Below are positions 43,211-51,974 of a stretch of DNA of 64,000 nt, one piece after another. The DNA comes from Actinotignum schaalii (GTDB lineage: Bacteria > Actinomycetota > Actinomycetes > Actinomycetales > Actinomycetaceae), in the NCBI RefSeq assembly GCF_028864145.1, contig NZ_JARBHJ010000003.1:20421-84420 (forward strand), given 5' to 3'. The stretch's first letter is position 1. Each line of letters begins with the position of its first letter. The notes under the pieces are model-generated. The model searched no databases. It was not told the DNA's origin and was given only the letters and a program-made list of their open reading frames with translations. The position numbers were made by a program, and so were the translations under genes.

Positions 43211-44167
43211 GTGAGAATATTATTCGCAGGAACACCGGAGACCGCAGTCCCGGCCTTGCAGCTACTACATCATGAAGGCTTCGATATCGCTGGGGTTCTC
43301 ACCCGCGCCCCAGCACCCCAGGGACGCAAACGCATACTCACCCCCTCGCCGGTACACCGCGTGGCAACAGAACTAGATATTCCCGTGCTCACGCCCCGTA
43401 CCTTGAAAGACGGTGCGATCCAGGAACAGATTGCTGCGCTTTCTCCGGAAGCTGTTGCGGTGGTTGCCTACGGGCTTATTATTCCACCCGCGCTTCTCAG
43501 CGTGCCGCGGCACGGCTGGATCAACCTACACTTCTCCCTCCTGCCGCGTTGGCGCGGGGCAGCACCGGTTAACTACGCGATTGCCGCGGGGGATACCACC
43601 ACCGGAACCAGCGTCTTCCAGATTGAACAAGGCCTGGATACCGGCCCCGTTTTCGCGAGCGAGGCCACCCAGATCGGAGTGGAAGAAACCGCTGGAGAGC
43701 TACTAGCACGCCTGGCACAATCCGGGGCGCGTCAATTGAGCGATACCCTCCACGCTATTGCTGCCGGTACCGCCCACCCGCAGCCCCAAAGTGGGGAGGT
43801 GACCCTCGCACCGCAATTCGATTCTTCCTGGGCGCGGGTGAACTGGGAGTGGCCCGCCCAGCGCGTCGCGGATCGCGTCCGCGCCGCCAACCCCGCACCC
43901 GGGGCCTGGACCACTCTCAACGGGCAGCGTTTTAAAATCGAATCGGTGGGCGTAAGTGCGCTCGAAACACCCGAAGGCACCGCAAAACACGTCAGTCTGG
44001 CGCCGGGCGAAATCAGCCCGGGCGGAATGGTTGGCTGCGGGGAAGGAACAATCCAATTGCGGCGGGTTGCCCCGCCCGGCAAGGCACATATGGATGCCTC
44101 CGCCTGGCTGAACGGTGCCCGGCTTGCCGCGCACACCCGTTTCGACTCCGAGGTGAAGGAGGGCTAG
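43211..44167 (+). CDS. fmt: Methionyl-tRNA formyltransferase
   Basis: Formylates initiator Met-tRNA using 10-formyl-THF (318 aa). The N-terminal Rossmann-like domain has RILFAGTPETAVPAL, the catalytic INLHFSLLPRWRGAAPVNYAI with the conserved His, and GLDTGPVFA; the C-terminal OB-fold tRNA-binding domain follows from about residue 205 (DRVRAANPAPGAWTTLNGQ). It starts with GTG from a probable leaderless promoter. It is one base away from rsmB, an operon conserved in most bacteria. Confidence 0.96.
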   Translation: MRILFAGTPETAVPALQLLHHEGFDIAGVLTRAPAPQGRKRILTPSPVHRVATELDIPVLTPRTLKDGAIQEQIAALSPEAVAVVAYGLIIPPALLSVPRHGWINLHFSLLPRWRGAAPVNYAIAAGDTTTGTSVFQIEQGLDTGPVFASEATQIGVEETAGELLARLAQSGARQLSDTLHAIAAGTAHPQPQSGEVTLAPQFDSSWARVNWEWPAQRVADRVRAANPAPGAWTTLNGQRFKIESVGVSALETPEGTAKHVSLAPGEISPGGMVGCGEGTIQLRRVAPPGKAHMDASAWLNGARLAAHTRFDSEVKEG

Positions 44168-44168
44168 C

Positions 44169-45611
44169 ATGACTGAGCGCCCCGAAGGCTGGGTACCGCG
44201 CCGCCAATCATCGAACCACGCCCGTCTCGTTGCCTATGATGCACTGCGGGCAGTCAATACCGAAGATGCCTACGCTAATCTCATCCTCCCGGGCATGGTG
44301 AGCCGGGCACGCCTCAATCGAAGCGATGCCGCCTTCGCCACCAACCTCGCCTACGGGACCTTGCGGCTTCAAGGCCGCTGGGATGCCATGATTGCCCGCT
44401 GTTCTCAAGGCCGTACCCTCGCAGAAATAGACCCGCGTGCCCTCGATCTGCTTCGCCTGGGCTGCTACCAGCTCATCGAGCTGAAAACACCACCCCACGC
44501 GGCCATTAACGAAACAGTTGCGCTGGCTCGCAATGAACTCGGCCAAGGAATCGCCGGTTTCGTCAATGCTGTATTGCGTAGGGTCTCCGAGCGTCGGGAT
44601 GCCTGGCGCGGAATCATTGAAAATAGCACCGCTTCTAGAGAAGAGTTCCTGGCAGTCTGGCATTCCCACCCGCGCTGGATCGTGCGCCAGTTGGAAGCTG
44701 CCCTCGCGGTGGCCGGGCGCTCAACCGAAGTGGAAGCCGTTCTCGAAGCGAATAACACTCCCGCAAAAGTAGCACTAGCCTGCCGCAATATTTCACCCGA
44801 ACACCTCAAAGCCAGGATTGAACGCGCCAAAATGACGTGGGAAAATCCCTACCTGGTGCCCAGTGCAGTGCTCTTAGCCTCAGGTGACCCGCACCGGCTC
44901 TGGCCCGTGCGCGACGGGGTCGCGGGTGTCCAGGATGAGGGCTCACAGCTGATCTCTGCCGTTGTCACAGAGGCATCCATCTCCGGGAAGGATGAATCCT
45001 GGCTGGATATGTGTGCCGGCCCGGGCGGGAAAACTGCAACTATCGCCGCTACTGCGGCCCGGCGCGGGGCCCGTGTATTCGCGAATGAACCCCAGGCCCA
45101 CCGCCTCGATCTCGTTGAAGAAAACGTTGCCCCTTGGGCGGATACCGTTGCGTTGCGGGAAGGCGATGGTCGGGATATTGGCGCTCAGGAACCGGATAGC
45201 TATGACAGGATCCTCGTGGATGCCCCATGTTCTGGCTTGGGAGCGCTGCGTCGTCGCCCTGAAGCCCGGTGGCGCAAAAAAGAAAGCGACCTGGCCGCAC
45301 TCACGCAACTCCAAGGTGAACTCCTCGACTCCGCCTACCGGGCCCTGCGCCCGGGCGGACTGCTGCTCTACACCACCTGCTCCCCGGTACTTGCCGAAAC
45401 TCGCGACGTCATCTCCGCTTTCCTGGAGCGCACCGCCGGCGCAGAACTCGGAGACGTGACCGTCACCGCGAACCGGCGGGCCCTGCGCCCGGTTGCCTCC
45501 CGCGGAATGACCGTGCAACTCTGGTCTGATATCCATCACACGGATGCCATGTATATGGCACGCATCCTCAAACCCGCAACCGCCCCCCCGCCCGCAGAAC
45601 GGCGCTCCTGA
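44169..45611 (+). CDS. rsmB: 16S rRNA m5C967 methyltransferase (RsmB/Fmu/Sun)
   Basis: Methylates cytosine 967 of 16S rRNA (480 aa). The N-terminal NusB-like RNA-binding domain (about 15-150) includes [16 protein letters not shown] and [11 protein letters not shown]. The Rossmann methyltransferase domain shows the SAM motif [18 protein letters not shown] and the two catalytic cysteines in [20 protein letters not shown] and [14 protein letters not shown]. Its sits between fmt and rpe as in mycobacteria. Confidence 0.94.
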
Positions 45612-45621
45612 AAGGACCATC

Positions 45622-46296
45622 ATGGACGTGAAGATTTCCCCCTCGATCCTCAACTGCGATTTCGGGCATCTCGCTGATGAACTGGAGAAAATCTCCAACG
45701 CCGATTTCGTGCACGTGGATATTATGGACAACCATTTTGTCCCCAACCTCGCCCTCGGCCTGCCCATTTTTGAGGCGGCGGCGCAGGCAACCACCGTTCC
45801 GCTGGACGCGCACCTTATGATTGAGAACCCGGATCGGTGGGCCCCCGCCTACGCCGAAGCAGGAGCCGCTTCCGTGACCTTCCACGCCGAAGCCTGCCAA
45901 GCCCCGCTGCGCCTGGCGCGCGAACTGCGCGCGCAGGGCGCCCGCGCCGGACTTGCCCTCAAACCTGCCAGCCCCATCGAGCCGTATCTCGATATCCTCA
46001 ACGAATTCGACATGATCCTCATCATGACGGTGGAACCGGGTTTCGGCGGGCAGAGCTTCATCGAAACGATGATGCCGAAAGTCACCCGCACCCGGTGCGC
46101 GATTGAAGCAGCCGGCTTGGACGTGTGGATCCAGGTAGACGGCGGCATTTCCCGCTCCACCATCGAACAAGCCGCGGCTGCCGGAGCCAATAACTTCGTG
46201 GCGGGCTCGGCGGTATTCCGTGCGGAGGATGCCTATGCCGAAGTGGAGAAGCTCCGTGAACTCGCCGCAGGCGCGTGCCAACACGCCTCAATCTAG
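45622..46296 (+). CDS. rpe: Ribulose-phosphate 3-epimerase
   Basis: A TIM-barrel enzyme (224 aa) of the pentose phosphate pathway interconverting ribulose-5-P and xylulose-5-P. Signatures are [28 protein letters not shown] with the catalytic Asp and metal His, [25 protein letters not shown] and VDGGIS. GAAAGGACC precedes the ATG. The last codons and 85 bp of downstream DNA form a degenerate repeat array. In many actinobacteria rpe is followed by riboflavin genes. Confidence 0.96.
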
Positions 46297-46380
46297 CAAT
46301 GCACGTGCCAGCACGATGCAAACTAACCACACGCGCATCCCAGCACGCTGCAAACTAACAACGGGTGCACGCCAGCACCC
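46278..46380 (+). repeat. Degenerate ~32-bp tandem repeats spanning the rpe 3' end
   Basis: Four related units begin at 46278, 46308, 46340 and 46372. Units two and three share CCAGCACGmTGCAAACTAAC (20 bases, one mismatch, period 32). The first unit lies in the rpe stop region (CCAACACGCC...CTAGC), and the fourth is only partly matched (CCAGCACCC...CTAAT). It looks like local duplication of the rpe end, now decaying. Confidence 0.65.
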
Positions 46381-46387
46381 GAAGGGC

Positions 46388-46393
46388 TAATAT
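46388..46393 (+). promoter_or_regulatory. Likely -10 box for the riboswitch transcript
   Basis: TAATAT, 8 bp before the riboswitch P1 stem; overlapping TATAGA (46391-46396) is an alternative. Confidence 0.45.
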
Positions 46394-46400
46394 AGAACAC

Positions 46401-46515
46401 GATGCACCGGGGTCAGTGAAAGTCTGAACCGGCGGTAACAGTCCGCGAACCACGCAAGTGGCCGATGGGGTGGAATTCCCCAACCGACGGTAACAGTCCG
46501 GATGGGAGGCGCATC
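46401..46515 (+). ncRNA. FMN riboswitch (RFN element)
   Basis: A complete RFN aptamer. The conserved strings are all present: AGTGAAAGTCTGAACCGGCG, GGTAACAGTCCGCGAACC, GGTGGAATTCCCCAACCG, and ACGGTAACAGTCCGGATGGG. P1 closes with GATGC (46401-46405) and GCATC (46511-46515). The expression platform (46516-46621) contains GGGGCTCCACGCCCC and a TTCCCG-GCCAT-CGGGAA hairpin right before the ribosome site, suggesting translational control, with binding of FMN lowering expression of the transporter genes that follow. Confidence 0.97.
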
Positions 46516-46621
46516 GAGGGGCTCCACGCCCCTGCTTCGGCTACGCTATTTCAGCGTGCCGCGGCGTCAGCGTCTCCCGGTTTCATCATTCCCGGCCATC
46601 GGGAAGGTCAGGAACCAGGAC

Positions 46622-47425
46622 GTGAACACTGTGCGCCGCAACTCTCACCCACGCCCGCGCTCGCCGCGCACCGCGTGGGTACCCGCCACCCTTGCTCTTC
46701 TCGCGGTTTTTCTCCTCTGGGTGGTGGTCACGCGAGCCCACCTGGTGCCCGAACATCTCCTTCCCGCACCCGGCGCGGTCGACCAACGCCTCGCCACCGC
46801 ACTCCTGGGAATAGGCGGGCACCCGCCCTACCTCCTCAGCGCACTGGGGAACACCCTCACCGCGGCCCTCACCGGCTGCGCCTGGGCGGCCCTCCTCGGA
46901 ATTCCCCTCGGCATTGCCCTGGCACGTTGGCGTCTCCTCAATAGCGCGCTCCAACCTTTCCTCGCCGCCTCGCAAGCCGTCCCCGCCGTGGCCCTCGCAC
47001 CCCTCCTCGTGGTGTGGATTGGCTACGGGATGCCTTCCATCGTGGTGCTCTGCACCATCATGGTGATTTTCCCGATTATCGTCTCGACCTCGGTGGGCGT
47101 GCACGCTATCGACCGCGATGTCATCGCCGCAGCTCGGCTCGACGGCGCATCCCGGCTCACCCTCCTTTTCCCCATCATCGTGCCTCTGGCAGCACCTTCC
47201 ATCCTGGCCGGCCTGCGCACCGGATTCACCCTCTCCATCACCGGCGCAGTCGTGGGCGAAATGATCATCGGGGGAGCGGGCCTGGGCACCGAACTTTCGC
47301 GTGCCCAACCCACCGGAGATATCACCGGAATGTTCGCGGTCATCGTCGTCATGGCCGCCGCAGCCATCAGCATCTACCTGCTCATCTTTACCATCGAAAA
47401 ACACGTCACAGCGGCGGTGCGTTAA
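46622..47425 (+). CDS. ribX: ABC transporter permease, riboflavin type (RibX-like)
   Basis: A 267-residue binding-protein-dependent permease with about six hydrophobic segments. The EAA loop reads AARLDGASRLTLLFPIIVPL (about residues 175-195), which contacts an ATPase. The family also contains NMT/SsuC/TauC permeases, so substrate assignment comes from the FMN riboswitch directly upstream: riboswitch-controlled pairs of this type are the RibXY riboflavin uptake systems. The GTG at 46622 follows AGGA by 8 nt and lies after the riboswitch platform; the frame is open upstream through the riboswitch. No ATP-binding subunit gene adjoins. Confidence 0.82.
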   Translation: MNTVRRNSHPRPRSPRTAWVPATLALLAVFLLWVVVTRAHLVPEHLLPAPGAVDQRLATALLGIGGHPPYLLSALGNTLTAALTGCAWAALLGIPLGIALARWRLLNSALQPFLAASQAVPAVALAPLLVVWIGYGMPSIVVLCTIMVIFPIIVSTSVGVHAIDRDVIAAARLDGASRLTLLFPIIVPLAAPSILAGLRTGFTLSITGAVVGEMIIGGAGLGTELSRAQPTGDITGMFAVIVVMAAAAISIYLLIFTIEKHVTAAVR

Positions 47426-47502
47426 CTATGGCCTCTCAAAGCCACGGCGCGCACCCCAGCAAGACCCCAGCGCATAGAAGCGCAACACAAGAAAGGACAC
47501 CC

Positions 47503-48549
47503 ATGAAACGACTCATTGCCACACTTGCGGCAGCTACCCTCGGCCTGGCCGGATGCGCGGGAGGCGCCGCGGGAGGAGGCGCGGATAAAAACGGCGAAAG
47601 CACCTCGCCCTCCGCCGCGCAGCCAAGTACCGCGAGCGCCACCGCTTCCCTCACCGTTGGCCTCACCTATGTTCCCGATATCCAATTCGCGCCCTTCTAC
47701 GTGGCCGAAGACCAGGGCTATTTCCGCGAAGCCGGGCTCGATATCACGCTGCGTCACCACGGCGCCCAAGAATCGCTCCTCGGCGCGCTTTCCAGCGGCA
47801 GCGAGGATGTGGTCTTCGCCGGAGGCGATGAAATGATGGAAGGCCGCTCCAATGGCATCGACGTGGTCAATTGGGCCACGATGTACCAGGATTACCCCGT
47901 CACTCTCATCGTCCCGGCTGATTCGCCGATCAAGAGCGCCGCCGACCTGGCCGGACGCCGCGTCGGCCTGCCCGGCCCGTACGGCGAAAACTACTATGCC
48001 CTCCAGGCGCTCATGGCCGCCCATAACTGGACCGAATCGGATATCAGCGTGAATTACATCGGCTACACCCAGGCCGCGGCCCTGGCCAGCGGGGAAGTGG
48101 ACGCGATTATCGGCTTCCGTAACTCCGATGTTCCCAGCGTGGAACGCCAGGGGGTGCCGGTGCGCACCATTGAGATGCTGCCGGGCGGACTGCCGCTGGT
48201 GGGCGTGGGACTCGGTTCGCTGCGTCCCACCGTGGATGCCCATCGCGATGATTTCACCCGCATGCTCACAGCTCTTGACCGGGCAGTGAACTTCGCGCGC
48301 AGTAACCCGAAGGAGACCGTGGAGATCACCGCGAAGTATGTGCCGGCCCTGCGTGAAGCGGATAACGCCGCCGCGGCTGAAAAAGTCCTCGCGAATACCA
48401 TCGAGCTTTACGCCGGGCGCACTCCGCTCGGAGTGCAGGATGCGCAGCGTTGGGACGCGATGGCCGCGTTCATGTCCGAGAAGCTTCTGCGCGAACCGGT
48501 TGCTGCGGCCGATGCTTTCGTTGATCTGACCGGCAGCGCCGCGCATTAA
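47503..48549 (+). CDS. ribY: Substrate-binding lipoprotein, NMT1/THI5-like (RibY-like)
   Basis: A 348-residue lipoprotein: signal peptide KRLIATLAAATLGLAGC with lipobox LAGC, a Gly/Ser linker, then a type II periplasmic-binding fold of the NMT1/THI5 group (LTVGLTYVPDIQFAPFYVAE, GYFREAGLDITLRHHGAQES, GRRVGLPGPYGENYYAL). Relatives bind thiamine precursors, riboflavin or similar rings; the FMN riboswitch points to riboflavin or a flavin. AGAAAGGAC precedes the ATG. It follows ribX by 77 bp in the same transcript. No terminator is obvious after it. Confidence 0.85.
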   Translation: MKRLIATLAAATLGLAGCAGGAAGGGADKNGESTSPSAAQPSTASATASLTVGLTYVPDIQFAPFYVAEDQGYFREAGLDITLRHHGAQESLLGALSSGSEDVVFAGGDEMMEGRSNGIDVVNWATMYQDYPVTLIVPADSPIKSAADLAGRRVGLPGPYGENYYALQALMAAHNWTESDISVNYIGYTQAAALASGEVDAIIGFRNSDVPSVERQGVPVRTIEMLPGGLPLVGVGLGSLRPTVDAHRDDFTRMLTALDRAVNFARSNPKETVEITAKYVPALREADNAAAAEKVLANTIELYAGRTPLGVQDAQRWDAMAAFMSEKLLREPVAAADAFVDLTGSAAH

Positions 48550-48594
48550 GAACGACGACGCAGCTGTGCTCCACCGGCCCATCAGGCGCGCAGC

Positions 48595-49713
48595 TCACCT
48601 CGGCTGCGCCCGCGCCACCAGCTCCCCGGCCGCGTAGCCGGCCGCGCCGGCCGCTAAAAAATTGAGGGGATCTTCGCTGAGTGAGCGTCCCATCGTGGAC
48701 AGCCGTACCGGGAAGTCCGCGAGGGCGCTCGCCACCGCATCCGCCTCCACGTTCACCCGCTCCAGGTGCGGCGCCTGGAAAAGCTCCTCCAGTTGCCCGG
48801 CCAGCCGCGCGCCCACATCCGCGGGAACCGCGCGGGAGAGCGCATCTTTACCCAGCACCGGCACCGGGCAGCGTACCGGGCAGCGCGCCACCCGCGTGAG
48901 TGCGGTAACACTGTGGTGGGAGAGCCCCAGGTGGCGCTCCCGCTTATCCGCGCTCGACATGCGCAAAGCCGCAATAGGGATTCCGCCCAGAGTGTCAGCG
49001 GCATTGAGATGCTCACCGACGCGCGTGCCAGAAAAACCCCACCGGGTATCCGTCCCCAGATTCCCCGGCCCTTGCGCCACCACGGCCACATCCGCCTGCC
49101 ACACCAGGCGCGCCGCCAACAAGGCAGTGTAAATCGTGACAGCTTCGAGCTTCCCCCCGAAGGCCTGCCCGCACGAAATTGTGCCCAGGATAAGGCCAAG
49201 ATCCTCCAGTAGCGCAGCGGTGCGGGAGAACCACGCTGGCAGAGCTCCGCCGTCGTCCATCACATATGCAATACGCGCCCCCGGCACGCGCGCACGCACC
49301 CCGGCAACAATGGCGGGAAGCGCCGAATGCAAATCCGCAGCCACCACCGGCATCCCGGCAATGGAATCCGCCTCGCGCAGCAGCTCGTGGTACGGGGAAT
49401 TCTGTTCATCCACACCCAGAGTGAGGTACTGGAGTGGGGTGTAGCGGGCCTTGACGATATGGCCGGGCGTGGGGGAGTCGGCGGGGAGCCGCTCCGGAAT
49501 CGCGCACACGAAGAAATACCCGCCGGTGCCCAGCCCGCGCGCGGCGGCACTCGCCTGGAGCAGCACAGTATCACCGGCGGCAGGTTCGCCCACGAGCTCG
49601 GGATAAGCGAGCGCCCGAGCGCGACTGCCGTCCTCAAGTTCCACCTCGGCTTCGCGCGCCCCGCGCCATGTTTTCCCCAGGGAAAGAATTTTCCCTCTGC
49701 GCCACATCATCAC
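48595..49713 (-). CDS. DUF3866 family protein
   Basis: An actinobacterial protein of unknown function (372 aa), recognised as the DUF3866 type by its opening MMWRRGKILSLGKTW..., the GGYFFVCAIPE and YTPLQYLTLGVDEQNSPYHE segments, and the glycine-rich core (VAVVAQGPGNLGTDTRWGFSG). I chose the GTG at 49713 (an ATG follows at 49710), because TAGAGT on the minus strand lies seven bases before it; the frame stays open for 60 more codons across the pafB promoter and start, which is unlikely to be coding. It is divergent from pafB with only 33 bp between starts. Confidence 0.75.
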   Translation of the reverse strand: MMMWRRGKILSLGKTWRGAREAEVELEDGSRARALAYPELVGEPAAGDTVLLQASAAARGLGTGGYFFVCAIPERLPADSPTPGHIVKARYTPLQYLTLGVDEQNSPYHELLREADSIAGMPVVAADLHSALPAIVAGVRARVPGARIAYVMDDGGALPAWFSRTAALLEDLGLILGTISCGQAFGGKLEAVTIYTALLAARLVWQADVAVVAQGPGNLGTDTRWGFSGTRVGEHLNAADTLGGIPIAALRMSSADKRERHLGLSHHSVTALTRVARCPVRCPVPVLGKDALSRAVPADVGARLAGQLEELFQAPHLERVNVEADAVASALADFPVRLSTMGRSLSEDPLNFLAAGAAGYAAGELVARAQPR

Positions 49714-49746
49714 GGCTTTAACTCTACCGTCGGCTAGGCTGGGTAC
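49714..49746. promoter_or_regulatory. 33-bp divergent promoter region, both sides leaderless
   Basis: On the plus strand TAGGCT (49735-49740) is six bases before the pafB GTG; on the minus strand TAGAGT (49726-49721) is seven bases before the DUF3866 GTG. Neither start has a ribosome site. The -35 region of each promoter must lie inside or next to the other gene's first codons. Confidence 0.6.
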
Positions 49747-50763
49747 GTGAAGCAGAAAGAGACACGCCGGCATCGCGAACGGCAGCTTGCGCTCCTCCAC
49801 ACGATTCGTCGCGGCAGTTTCCTCACCGCGGCGGAACTCATGGAGCGCATTCCGGCCTACGCCGAAGCGGGAATTGATCTGCGCACTTTCCAACGTGATA
49901 TTGACGCGCTGCGCGAAGCCGGATATCCCATTATTTTTGACGACCAGTGGCGTTATTCATACGATTCCGCTGCGCCGGTGCTCGCGCGGGTCACCGGGAT
50001 TGGGGCCGGGGTGCTCCACAGCTTGCGCTCCAGTATCGAGGCCGGCGATCCCCAAGGCGAATCGGCGCGTTTGGGGGTGGCGAAACTTCTTGCGGGCGCG
50101 CCTCCGGAAAGCGGCGACGCCGCAGCCCCCACCCACCTGCGGGTCCGGATTCCGGGCGGTGCAGCAGCGCGGGTGGTTGCGCGCGCCTTGCAGTACCGGC
50201 GCCGGGTCAGTTTCGATTACCGTCGGGGTGCTGACCTTGTCAAACATTATGAGGTGGAGCCGTGGAACTTCGCCGAACACTACGGAATGTTCTATGTGTC
50301 CGGCTTGGCACGCTCGCGGGAGAGCGGCCGCAAGGATTTCGGCCCCTGGGATGAGCGAACTTTCCGCCTCAGTCGCGTGATCTCGGGAACTCTCAGCGTG
50401 GGTGAACGGTGCGAGTTCCCCCGCGGGGAGGTAAGCGGGGAGCATTTTGACGTGGACATTATTCTGCATATTCGCGACGGCGCCGCGGCTGCCCTTGCCT
50501 CCCGCGGGGAGAAACTGAGGCGTGCGGATGCGCCGGCTGTAGCGGATGATTCGGCCCCCGCGCACGTACCGGCCCCCGCGGGCTGGACGGCCTACCGATT
50601 CTCCACCGTAGGCCTTAATCGTATTTTCGAATATCTGGCTTTTTACGGGGTGGATGTGCGCCTGGCCGCACCCGGCGAGCTGCGCGAAGAATGGGACCGC
50701 CGCGTAAACAATCTCATTAACCTGGGCGAAGCTGCCGGGCCGGGGGAGGGCGAAACTCGATGA
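49747..50763 (+). CDS. pafB: WYL-domain transcription regulator PafB
   Basis: A 338-residue regulator with an N-terminal winged helix-turn-helix (LRTFQRDIDALREAGYPI) and a WYL domain (ALQYRRRVSFDYR, EVEPWNFAEHYGMFYVSG, FRLSRV). PafB works with PafC as a heterodimer that activates DNA-repair genes after damage, sensing single-stranded DNA in mycobacteria. It overlaps pafC by 4 bases. In proteasome-bearing actinobacteria pafA precedes it; here a DUF3866 gene does. The start is a GTG from a leaderless promoter. Confidence 0.88.
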   Translation: MKQKETRRHRERQLALLHTIRRGSFLTAAELMERIPAYAEAGIDLRTFQRDIDALREAGYPIIFDDQWRYSYDSAAPVLARVTGIGAGVLHSLRSSIEAGDPQGESARLGVAKLLAGAPPESGDAAAPTHLRVRIPGGAAARVVARALQYRRRVSFDYRRGADLVKHYEVEPWNFAEHYGMFYVSGLARSRESGRKDFGPWDERTFRLSRVISGTLSVGERCEFPRGEVSGEHFDVDIILHIRDGAAAALASRGEKLRRADAPAVADDSAPAHVPAPAGWTAYRFSTVGLNRIFEYLAFYGVDVRLAAPGELREEWDRRVNNLINLGEAAGPGEGETR

Positions 50764-51974
50764 GTGCCGATATCGTCACCACCCTCGGCATGCTGCTCTA
50801 CCTGCACGAACGCCCCCAGGGCGCCACCTTGGCCGAGCTCACCGCACATTTCCAATTCCCCTCCTGGAAGCGCACCCTCGACTACCTTTGGGATGCCAAC
50901 CTGGCCGAAACCGCCGATTTCGATGTCCCCTTCGAATTGGAGTTGCCCGAGCGTGGTGCTTGCGCGGGGAGTGCGGCACAGGCGGATACGGCGGGCCGCT
51001 CGGGTAGCGCGGAGCTGCCGGAAAACATGGCGCAGGCGAATACCGCGGCAGGGCCGGAGAGCCGCGTCTACCTGCGCTCCATGACGGATGATCCGGTTAT
51101 TCCCTTCACTCTGGACGATGCGATGGTGGTAGCTGCGCTGCTCGATGCTGCCCGGGATGTCAGCGCACCCGGGCCAGCTGCTACAACCCTCACCGCCACT
51201 CGCGCCGCGCTGGGGGAGGCGGTGCGGGAAGCCGGATATGAAGGTGCGCTCTGGCCGCCCTCCCGTCCGGCCGCAGACGCAGCCACGATGAAGGCCGTGC
51301 AGGCCGCACTCCAAGGCGGCTTCTACCTCGACTTTAGCTACGAACGTGCGCTCAGCGACCCGCTTCCGCACGCGCGCGCCGGGCGCGAACACGTTATTCC
51401 CCTCGTTATCCTGGCCGGCGATGCCCCGCTGCTGCGCGCCCTCACCGAGCACGGCCTGCGCCATTTCCGCCTGGATCGCATAACCGCGGCCCGCCCCGGT
51501 GCGAAGCTCAGCAGATCGGAACGCGCGGCCGCTCGCCGGGTCCTCGCCGAGGTGGAGAAAAAAGAGAAAACGCAGCGCACCCGCGGGGAAGATACCTGGG
51601 AGCCGAACGGCACGGACGTGCGTATTATCGTCACTGGAGCCTCACGTTGGGTGGCGGAAACCCTGCCCGGAGCGCGGGTGCGCGATGCGAATGAAGAGCC
51701 CTGCATCGCGAATGCGTGTGGTGAGGTGAACATGCTCGGCGCCCCAAACGCGCGGGGCGAGGAGCTGCTCACCATTGAGGTCCGGGCCCGCTCCCTTCCC
51801 TGGCTCGTCTCACTGCTCGTGCAAATTGACGATGTGGTCGCCCTAGAACCATCGGAAGTTGCGCGCGCGGTGGCAGATTATTGCGCGCGCTTGCGCGCGA
51901 ATGAGGGCGACGACGCCGCTACGCCGGCCATCCGTGAATATACGCTGGAAAGCACACCGGAGGGGGAGCGATGA
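50760..51974 (+). CDS. pafC: WYL-domain transcription regulator PafC
   Basis: The 404-residue partner of PafB. Its N-terminal winged helix is more diverged (MSADIVTTLGMLLYLHERPQGATLAELTAHF), and the WYL domain carries LQGGFYLDFSYERA, VIPLVILAGDAPLLRALTEHGLRHFRLDRI. Two low-complexity insertions are present (after residue 60 and around 255-275). Position and coupling (ATGA with both pafB and helY) support the call. It is longer than the mycobacterial protein (about 315 aa). Confidence 0.82.
   Translation: MSADIVTTLGMLLYLHERPQGATLAELTAHFQFPSWKRTLDYLWDANLAETADFDVPFELELPERGACAGSAAQADTAGRSGSAELPENMAQANTAAGPESRVYLRSMTDDPVIPFTLDDAMVVAALLDAARDVSAPGPAATTLTATRAALGEAVREAGYEGALWPPSRPAADAATMKAVQAALQGGFYLDFSYERALSDPLPHARAGREHVIPLVILAGDAPLLRALTEHGLRHFRLDRITAARPGAKLSRSERAAARRVLAEVEKKEKTQRTRGEDTWEPNGTDVRIIVTGASRWVAETLPGARVRDANEEPCIANACGEVNMLGAPNARGEELLTIEVRARSLPWLVSLLVQIDDVVALEPSEVARAVADYCARLRANEGDDAATPAIREYTLESTPEGER

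Follow-up and report, generated by a model that had tools for sequence, protein, structure and literature searches.

An FMN riboswitch in Actinotignum schaalii precedes likely RibXY-type genes predicted to import riboflavin that the cell likely cannot make

We analysed a 64,000-nucleotide stretch (the window) of the 2.2-Mb draft genome of Actinotignum schaalii (77 contigs, 98.66% complete), in which a flavin mononucleotide (FMN) riboswitch stands between rpe and a two-gene transporter locus. The aptamer, at 46399–46517 on the forward strand, matched RF00050 over the full length of the model (positions 1–138 of 138; 91.7 bits against a gathering score of 66.2, E = 1e-19). It is the sole RF00050 match in this genome, and no other Rfam family exceeded its threshold in the window. 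Downstream on the same strand lie a ribX-like ATP-binding cassette (ABC) permease gene (46622–47425) and a ribY-like gene for a substrate-binding lipoprotein (47503–48549). The permease matched BPD_transp_1 (PF00528, 104 bits) and has six hydrophobic peaks and a loop, AARLDGASRLTLLFPIIVP, resembling the known ATPase-coupling motif. Its probable start is GTG 46622, the position at which the matches in four close relatives likewise begin, 223–224 bases past the riboswitch start; a longer open reading frame from 46502 overlaps the aptamer. The binding protein matched NMT1 (PF09084, 130.9 bits), carries a lipobox (LAGC at residues 15–18) and is 99% identical to that of A. schaalii FB123-CNA-2, the nearest named relative. 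It is the only NMT1-type match in the genome, and its description as ribY-like also draws on an alignment and on a structure model (mean predicted local distance difference test score 88.2) whose fold matches are binders of several ligands.

A candidate expression platform (46518–46640, forward strand) was assigned from the predicted fold of the leader, in which a purine-rich stretch 5′ of the ribX start codon is paired. Downstream of the aptamer, the leader folded at −60.1 kcal/mol (z = −4.5), and none of 200 shuffles was equally low. On the forward strand of 46200–48700 we found neither a terminator-like site nor a sigma-70-type promoter; one sigma-70-type site and all five terminator-like sites in this region lie on the reverse strand. 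Because the region before the start codon is paired in the predicted fold and the forward strand yielded no terminator-like site, the riboswitch likely controls translation of ribXY. The leader hairpin was also considered as a conserved element and set aside: the close Actinotignum species are too alike for covariation, and longer leaders fold less distinctly.

The arrangement resembles the RibXY locus of Chloroflexus aurantiacus, which likewise has an FMN riboswitch leader, a permease gene followed by a binding-protein gene, and no adjoining ATPase gene (PMC3766115, PMC4418817; here and below, statements from cited papers rest on excerpts of their text). RibXY was named as a system without an ATPase component (PMC3766115), and the C. 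aurantiacus ribXY operon alone conferred riboflavin-dependent growth and uptake on an E. coli ribB mutant (PMC4418817). Such genes are listed for Actinobacteria whether or not these have the riboflavin pathway (PMC4418817), and are found in prototrophs and auxotrophs alike (PMC6593275). In A. schaalii, the riboswitch lies in the leader, the permease gene precedes the NMT1-type gene and no ATPase gene adjoins the pair; permease and lipoprotein are likely RibXY-type, a predicted riboflavin importer. The importer type is already known, and this locus is a further case of it. The likeness drawn here is one of gene organisation, and unlike the C. aurantiacus genes the pair sits at an rpe site, between fmt-rsmB-rpe and a DUF3866 gene.

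RibH (PF00885), RibA (PF00925), the riboflavin synthase domain of RibE (PF00677) and RibD_C (PF01872) were each absent from all six Actinotignum genomes searched, this one and five congeners. RibA, the RibE domain and RibD_C were each found in all six control genomes, members of the family Actinomycetaceae chosen for having RibH, and a flavokinase domain was present in 6/6 Actinotignum genomes. As the search for these four enzyme families of the riboflavin pathway yielded no gene, the cell is likely unable to make the vitamin, and we predict that the strain needs riboflavin from outside and converts it to FMN. The initial annotation had forecast this auxotrophy and pointed to rib genes elsewhere in the genome as the check; the forecast stands, as a prediction, and the search of the four families revealed no complete pathway. 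We found no report of riboflavin auxotrophy in Actinomycetaceae in the literature. Overall, we consider it highly probable that the FMN riboswitch stands before the genes of a transporter, likely of the RibXY type, whose predicted substrate is riboflavin, a vitamin that the cell is likely unable to make. At low FMN, the riboswitch would let ribXY be translated; RibY would capture riboflavin outside the cell, and RibX would bring it into the cell, drawing on the ATPase of another transporter. Conversion of the riboflavin to FMN and flavin adenine dinucleotide would fall to RibF, and FMN would then switch ribXY off.

Several points weigh against this interpretation, the first of which concern the ligand. 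The NCBIfam matches of permease and binding protein fell below curated cut-offs, and neither was named as a riboflavin component. The fold neighbours of RibY bind thiamin precursors, sulfonates and pyrroloquinoline quinone, so that the fold does not fix the ligand and was discarded as a guide to it; none of 10 PDB sequence matches was a protein named RibY. The transporter might instead carry thiamin, hydroxymethylpyrimidine (HMP) or another flavin-like molecule, the riboswitch only tying its expression to flavin status. The ThiXYZ transporters of thiamin/HMP precursors (3ix1, 4nmy) are indeed alike in binding-protein fold and permease class, but the window has no thiamin riboswitch match and no ATPase gene adjoining the pair. 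Such a cargo is decidedly improbable given that an FMN riboswitch precedes ribXY in every RibH-negative family genome examined (62/62; see below), that RF00050 alone exceeded the Rfam threshold in the window, and that C. aurantiacus RibXY supports riboflavin uptake, its RibY being reported to bind flavins (PMC4418817).

The remaining points concern the regulation, the missing pathway and the sampling. Relatives have a weaker leader hairpin (z = −2.1 in A. urinale and −1.6 in Actinobaculum suis), no specific partner ATPase for RibXY was found in the genome and none adjoins the pair, and 35 of the 121 family genomes lay outside the context survey described below. Limited growth of A. schaalii UMB13319 was reported in SimUrine.v1, a medium with no vitamins among the additions listed to its base recipe (PMC12915295). 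This growth counts against strict auxotrophy pending transfers; in the same study, E. coli and Klebsiella grew partially on what was carried over from rich medium (PMC12915295). Conceivably, then, the pathway is present but was missed, in a draft gap or as unrelated enzyme families, and ribXY is only a supplement. This fits the growth in SimUrine.v1, an assembly that is a draft in 77 contigs (98.66% complete) and a search limited to RibH, RibA, the RibE domain and RibD_C, but none of these four turned up in five further Actinotignum genomes either, one of which (G017) is given as a single contig, and we judge a missed pathway highly improbable. We retain the reading of an FMN-responsive RibXY importer in a riboflavin auxotroph.

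An ATPase should be needed, because the permease keeps the loop that resembles the coupling motif. Across 82 family contexts, a motif scan found no ATPase directly adjoining ribXY; three genomes (G013, G052 and G094) have an ATPase on the opposite strand, about 2–4 kb upstream of ribXY and next to a RibX-like permease. The SsuB/TauB-like ATPase from near ribXY of G052 was used to search five genomes. Among the matches listed, those in G022 (80% identity) and G008 (55%) were close; this genome gave 25 matches at E ≤ 1e-20, with identities of at most 43% among the matches listed. We examined four of its match loci: one holds a MetN-like gene, whose best NCBIfam match, MetN, stayed below cut-off; one a pair that is presumably peptide-transporter-like; one an ATPase beside a permease that we take to be metal-transporter-like; and one a UgpC/MalK-type ATPase that stands alone and scored above the cut-off of the UgpC subfamily. 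RibXY might share this last ATPase, a candidate solely by virtue of its standing alone. Since the C. aurantiacus ribXY operon by itself gave riboflavin-dependent growth in the E. coli ribB mutant, borrowing of an ATPase by RibXY seems plausible.

Upstream of the riboswitch, on the forward strand, are fmt (methionyl-tRNA formyltransferase, 43211–44167; Pfam Formyl_trans_N/C; TIGR00460, 226.7 bits, cut-off 201.5), rsmB (16S rRNA methyltransferase, 44169–45611; Pfam Methyltr_RsmB-F and NusB, with NCBIfam rsmB models matched below their cut-offs) and rpe (ribulose-phosphate 3-epimerase, 45622–46296; TIGR01163, 251.9 bits, cut-off 212.6). The rpe open reading frame spans 45544–46296, and the gene probably starts at 45622 rather than 45544, because the profile match begins only at residue 30. 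The initial annotation had described fmt-rsmB-rpe and the FMN riboswitch as kept, with a permease and a binding lipoprotein behind them. The profile matches of fmt and rpe, the Pfam domains of rsmB and the RF00050 match bear out the former, and the PF00528 and PF09084 matches above cut-off, with the lipobox, the latter. Its further premise, that this order often stands under an FMN riboswitch in Mycobacterium and relatives, is at odds with PMC3766115, according to which Mycobacteriaceae lack FMN riboswitches.

Among 121 Actinomycetaceae genomes, an FMN riboswitch was matched in 120, in 119 of them above the cut-off, and RibH in 31 but not in the other 90. Riboswitch neighbourhoods were examined in 86 of them (73 as long stretches, with 89 places, 12 as short loci, and the window), with genes labelled from tblastn and set distances rather than curated annotation. 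All 62 RibH-negative genomes examined (of the 90) had ribXY behind the riboswitch; rpe lay directly before it in 50 and further off in 7, and 5 had no rpe in the stretch. Of 24 RibH-positive genomes examined (of the 31), 15 had both riboswitch–ribXY and a riboswitch–rib operon, and 9 had the riboswitch–rib operon only. Within the 15, ribXY was at rpe in 7 and had no rpe upstream in 8, so that rpe-[FMN]-ribXY and a separate FMN-riboswitch rib operon coexist in 7/24. At none of the 23 riboswitch–rib places in the family stretches was rpe upstream, and hisE or hisG stood beside ribXY at 38 of 66 family places. The only family genome without a riboswitch match (G006, L002; 1/121) has RibH on a 6.6-kb contig, which may reflect a foreign contig or a gap. 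Another, G072, has a second FMN riboswitch before a lone, intact riboflavin synthase gene (L099:6621–7448, above NCBIfam cut-offs) and no RibH match; this gene may be a remnant of a rib operon that has been lost.

Beyond the family, an FMN riboswitch was found in 217 of 248 genomes of the order. We examined 73 places from 64 genomes, hand-picked from the best 150 listed (f4, f9 and f17, in our numbering of families, not being covered). Rib genes were at 55 of these places, with rpe directly upstream at 20 (f5, f8, f12, f13 and f14), further off at 1 and not in the stretch at 34; in this sample, then, most rib operons stand apart from rpe. Six places carried ribXY, all in f11 (four rpe-adjacent, two further off), and seven carried ribM, a PF04973 transporter (four rpe-adjacent in f6 and f10, three in f8 without rpe). 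A RibU-like gene was found at four places (f3), and one stretch was too short to assign. The same stretch held hisE or hisG at 18/20 rpe-adjacent rib places, 6/6 f11 ribXY places and 4/4 rpe-adjacent ribM places.

At the level of the class, the riboswitch was present in 121 of 148 genomes. All 20 places chosen by family (one of them, G123, belonging to the same order) had rpe upstream and rib genes downstream, accompanied by both hisE and hisG at 8, by a weak hisG-like match alone at 4 and by neither at 6, with the stretch cut short at 2. In an unselected check of the best 30 class loci, with 1.5 kb on each side, rpe was present in 5, all with rib genes. At 4 of the 20 chosen places (two in f29, one in f4, one in f38), the rib operon at the rpe site includes a ribM-like gene, so that loss of the other rib genes could leave ribM alone there. 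These counts of arrangements point to rpe-[FMN]-rib genes as the likely old arrangement, with ribXY and ribM as later cargo there. The window shares its left frame and riboswitch with the actinobacterial fmt-rsmB-rpe-[FMN]-rib operon-hisE-hisG locus, but has a transporter in place of the synthesis genes and lacks hisE-hisG. More broadly, a single framed site turns up with rib genes, ribXY or ribM depending on the family; across family, order and class, the riboswitch site stays in place, followed in some genomes by genes for making riboflavin and in others by genes for importing it. In the literature on RibXY, ribM, the FMN riboswitch and actinobacteria (supplements not covered), we found no account of cargo exchange at the rpe-hisE site.

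A comparable case is acI strain A4, in which a lone FMN riboswitch precedes a pnuC-like gene and there is no rib operon (PMC5301498). As in A. schaalii, the riboswitch is kept, an importer stands behind it and auxotrophy is predicted, but the A4 transporter is of the PnuX/RibM family (PMC5301498). Three loci of f35 (L323, L331 and L333, from genomes of 1.2–1.5 Mb), in which the riboswitch directly precedes a ribM-like gene with no other rib match within 1.5 kb, resemble the A4 arrangement (PMC5301498).

Trees, built by a quick method with Shimodaira–Hasegawa-like approximate likelihood-ratio support only, bear on how these arrangements arose. On a tree of RibE+RibBA+RibH from 77 rib operons, at least four changes are required to account for the 22 operons of the family, and their union in a single clade was rejected (approximately unbiased (AU) test, p = 8.6e-8); 12 fall in one group near f8 and f10, and 10 elsewhere. 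This suggests that rib operons may have been regained by transfer several times in the family. On a RibX+RibY tree of 67 hand-chosen loci, the ribXY of the window belongs to a 13-row clade (support 100), all members of which keep rpe and/or hisEG in the stretch. A single origin of ribXY at the rpe/his site, as a strict clade, was rejected (AU p = 4.2e-5) because the site-bound rows are interspersed with off-site ribXY of Streptomyces, Pseudoclavibacter, Gulosibacter, Propionibacteriaceae and some members of the family. RibY relatives from Streptomyces and Pseudoclavibacter include loci without the exact riboswitch end motif (L278–L280, L282, L287, L290, L293, L296–L300, L302–L305 and L307), by a crude test in which the motif occurred in 53/80 named loci and some rpe-linked loci lacked it. 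At L279, there is a ribBA-like match just upstream.

The initial annotation had seen in the locus a change from making to importing riboflavin at one regulated site. In its strongest form, one local event would have replaced the rib genes behind this riboswitch with ribXY, turning a maker into an importer at once. Other families and orders do carry rib genes at the same framed site, and this genome lacks them; to that extent the proposal holds. A single change in the lineage is nonetheless very improbable: seven RibH-positive family genomes (7/24) keep ribXY at rpe together with a rib operon under its own riboswitch elsewhere, rpe is upstream at 0/23 family riboswitch–rib places, and the ribXY of the window falls in a clade of 13 rows that all have rpe and/or hisEG. 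Because those seven genomes keep both, the exchange of cargo at the site and the disappearance of synthesis likely happened separately. In such a history, an ancestral rpe-[FMN]-hisEG site would have carried rib genes; a transporter would have taken the site in the line leading to Actinomycetaceae while a rib operon persisted elsewhere under a second riboswitch; and this operon would later have been lost in A. schaalii and many relatives. We give an even chance to the broader proposal that the rpe-hisE-hisG FMN riboswitch is a fixed actinobacterial regulatory dock with exchanged cargo (the synthesis operon, ribXY or ribM, by family), at which an importer, with the synthesis operon elsewhere under its own riboswitch, made synthesis dispensable, after which Actinomycetaceae lost it on many occasions and reacquired it by transfer on several. 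The family offers a case for asking which came first, the importer or the loss of synthesis.

Directly behind ribXY in the window come a DUF3866 gene (48595–49893, reverse strand; PF12982, 386.8 bits), in the same place in relatives, and, on the forward strand and in the same order in relatives, a WYL-domain gene (49747–50763; PF13280) and a gene with no Pfam match (50760–51974), which we take to be pafB-like and pafC-like, respectively. Many relatives have hisE-hisG between ribXY and these genes; in the window, hisE-hisG is missing from the gap at 48550–48594. HisG was found in 0/6 Actinotignum genomes and in all four family genomes added for comparison, so hisE-hisG was likely lost in Actinotignum, for which we predict histidine auxotrophy. 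A single locus leads in this way to a testable nutritional prediction, that Actinotignum needs riboflavin, and probably histidine, from outside. Between rpe and the riboswitch, at 46301–46364, lies a 32-base direct repeat in two copies that are 78% alike.
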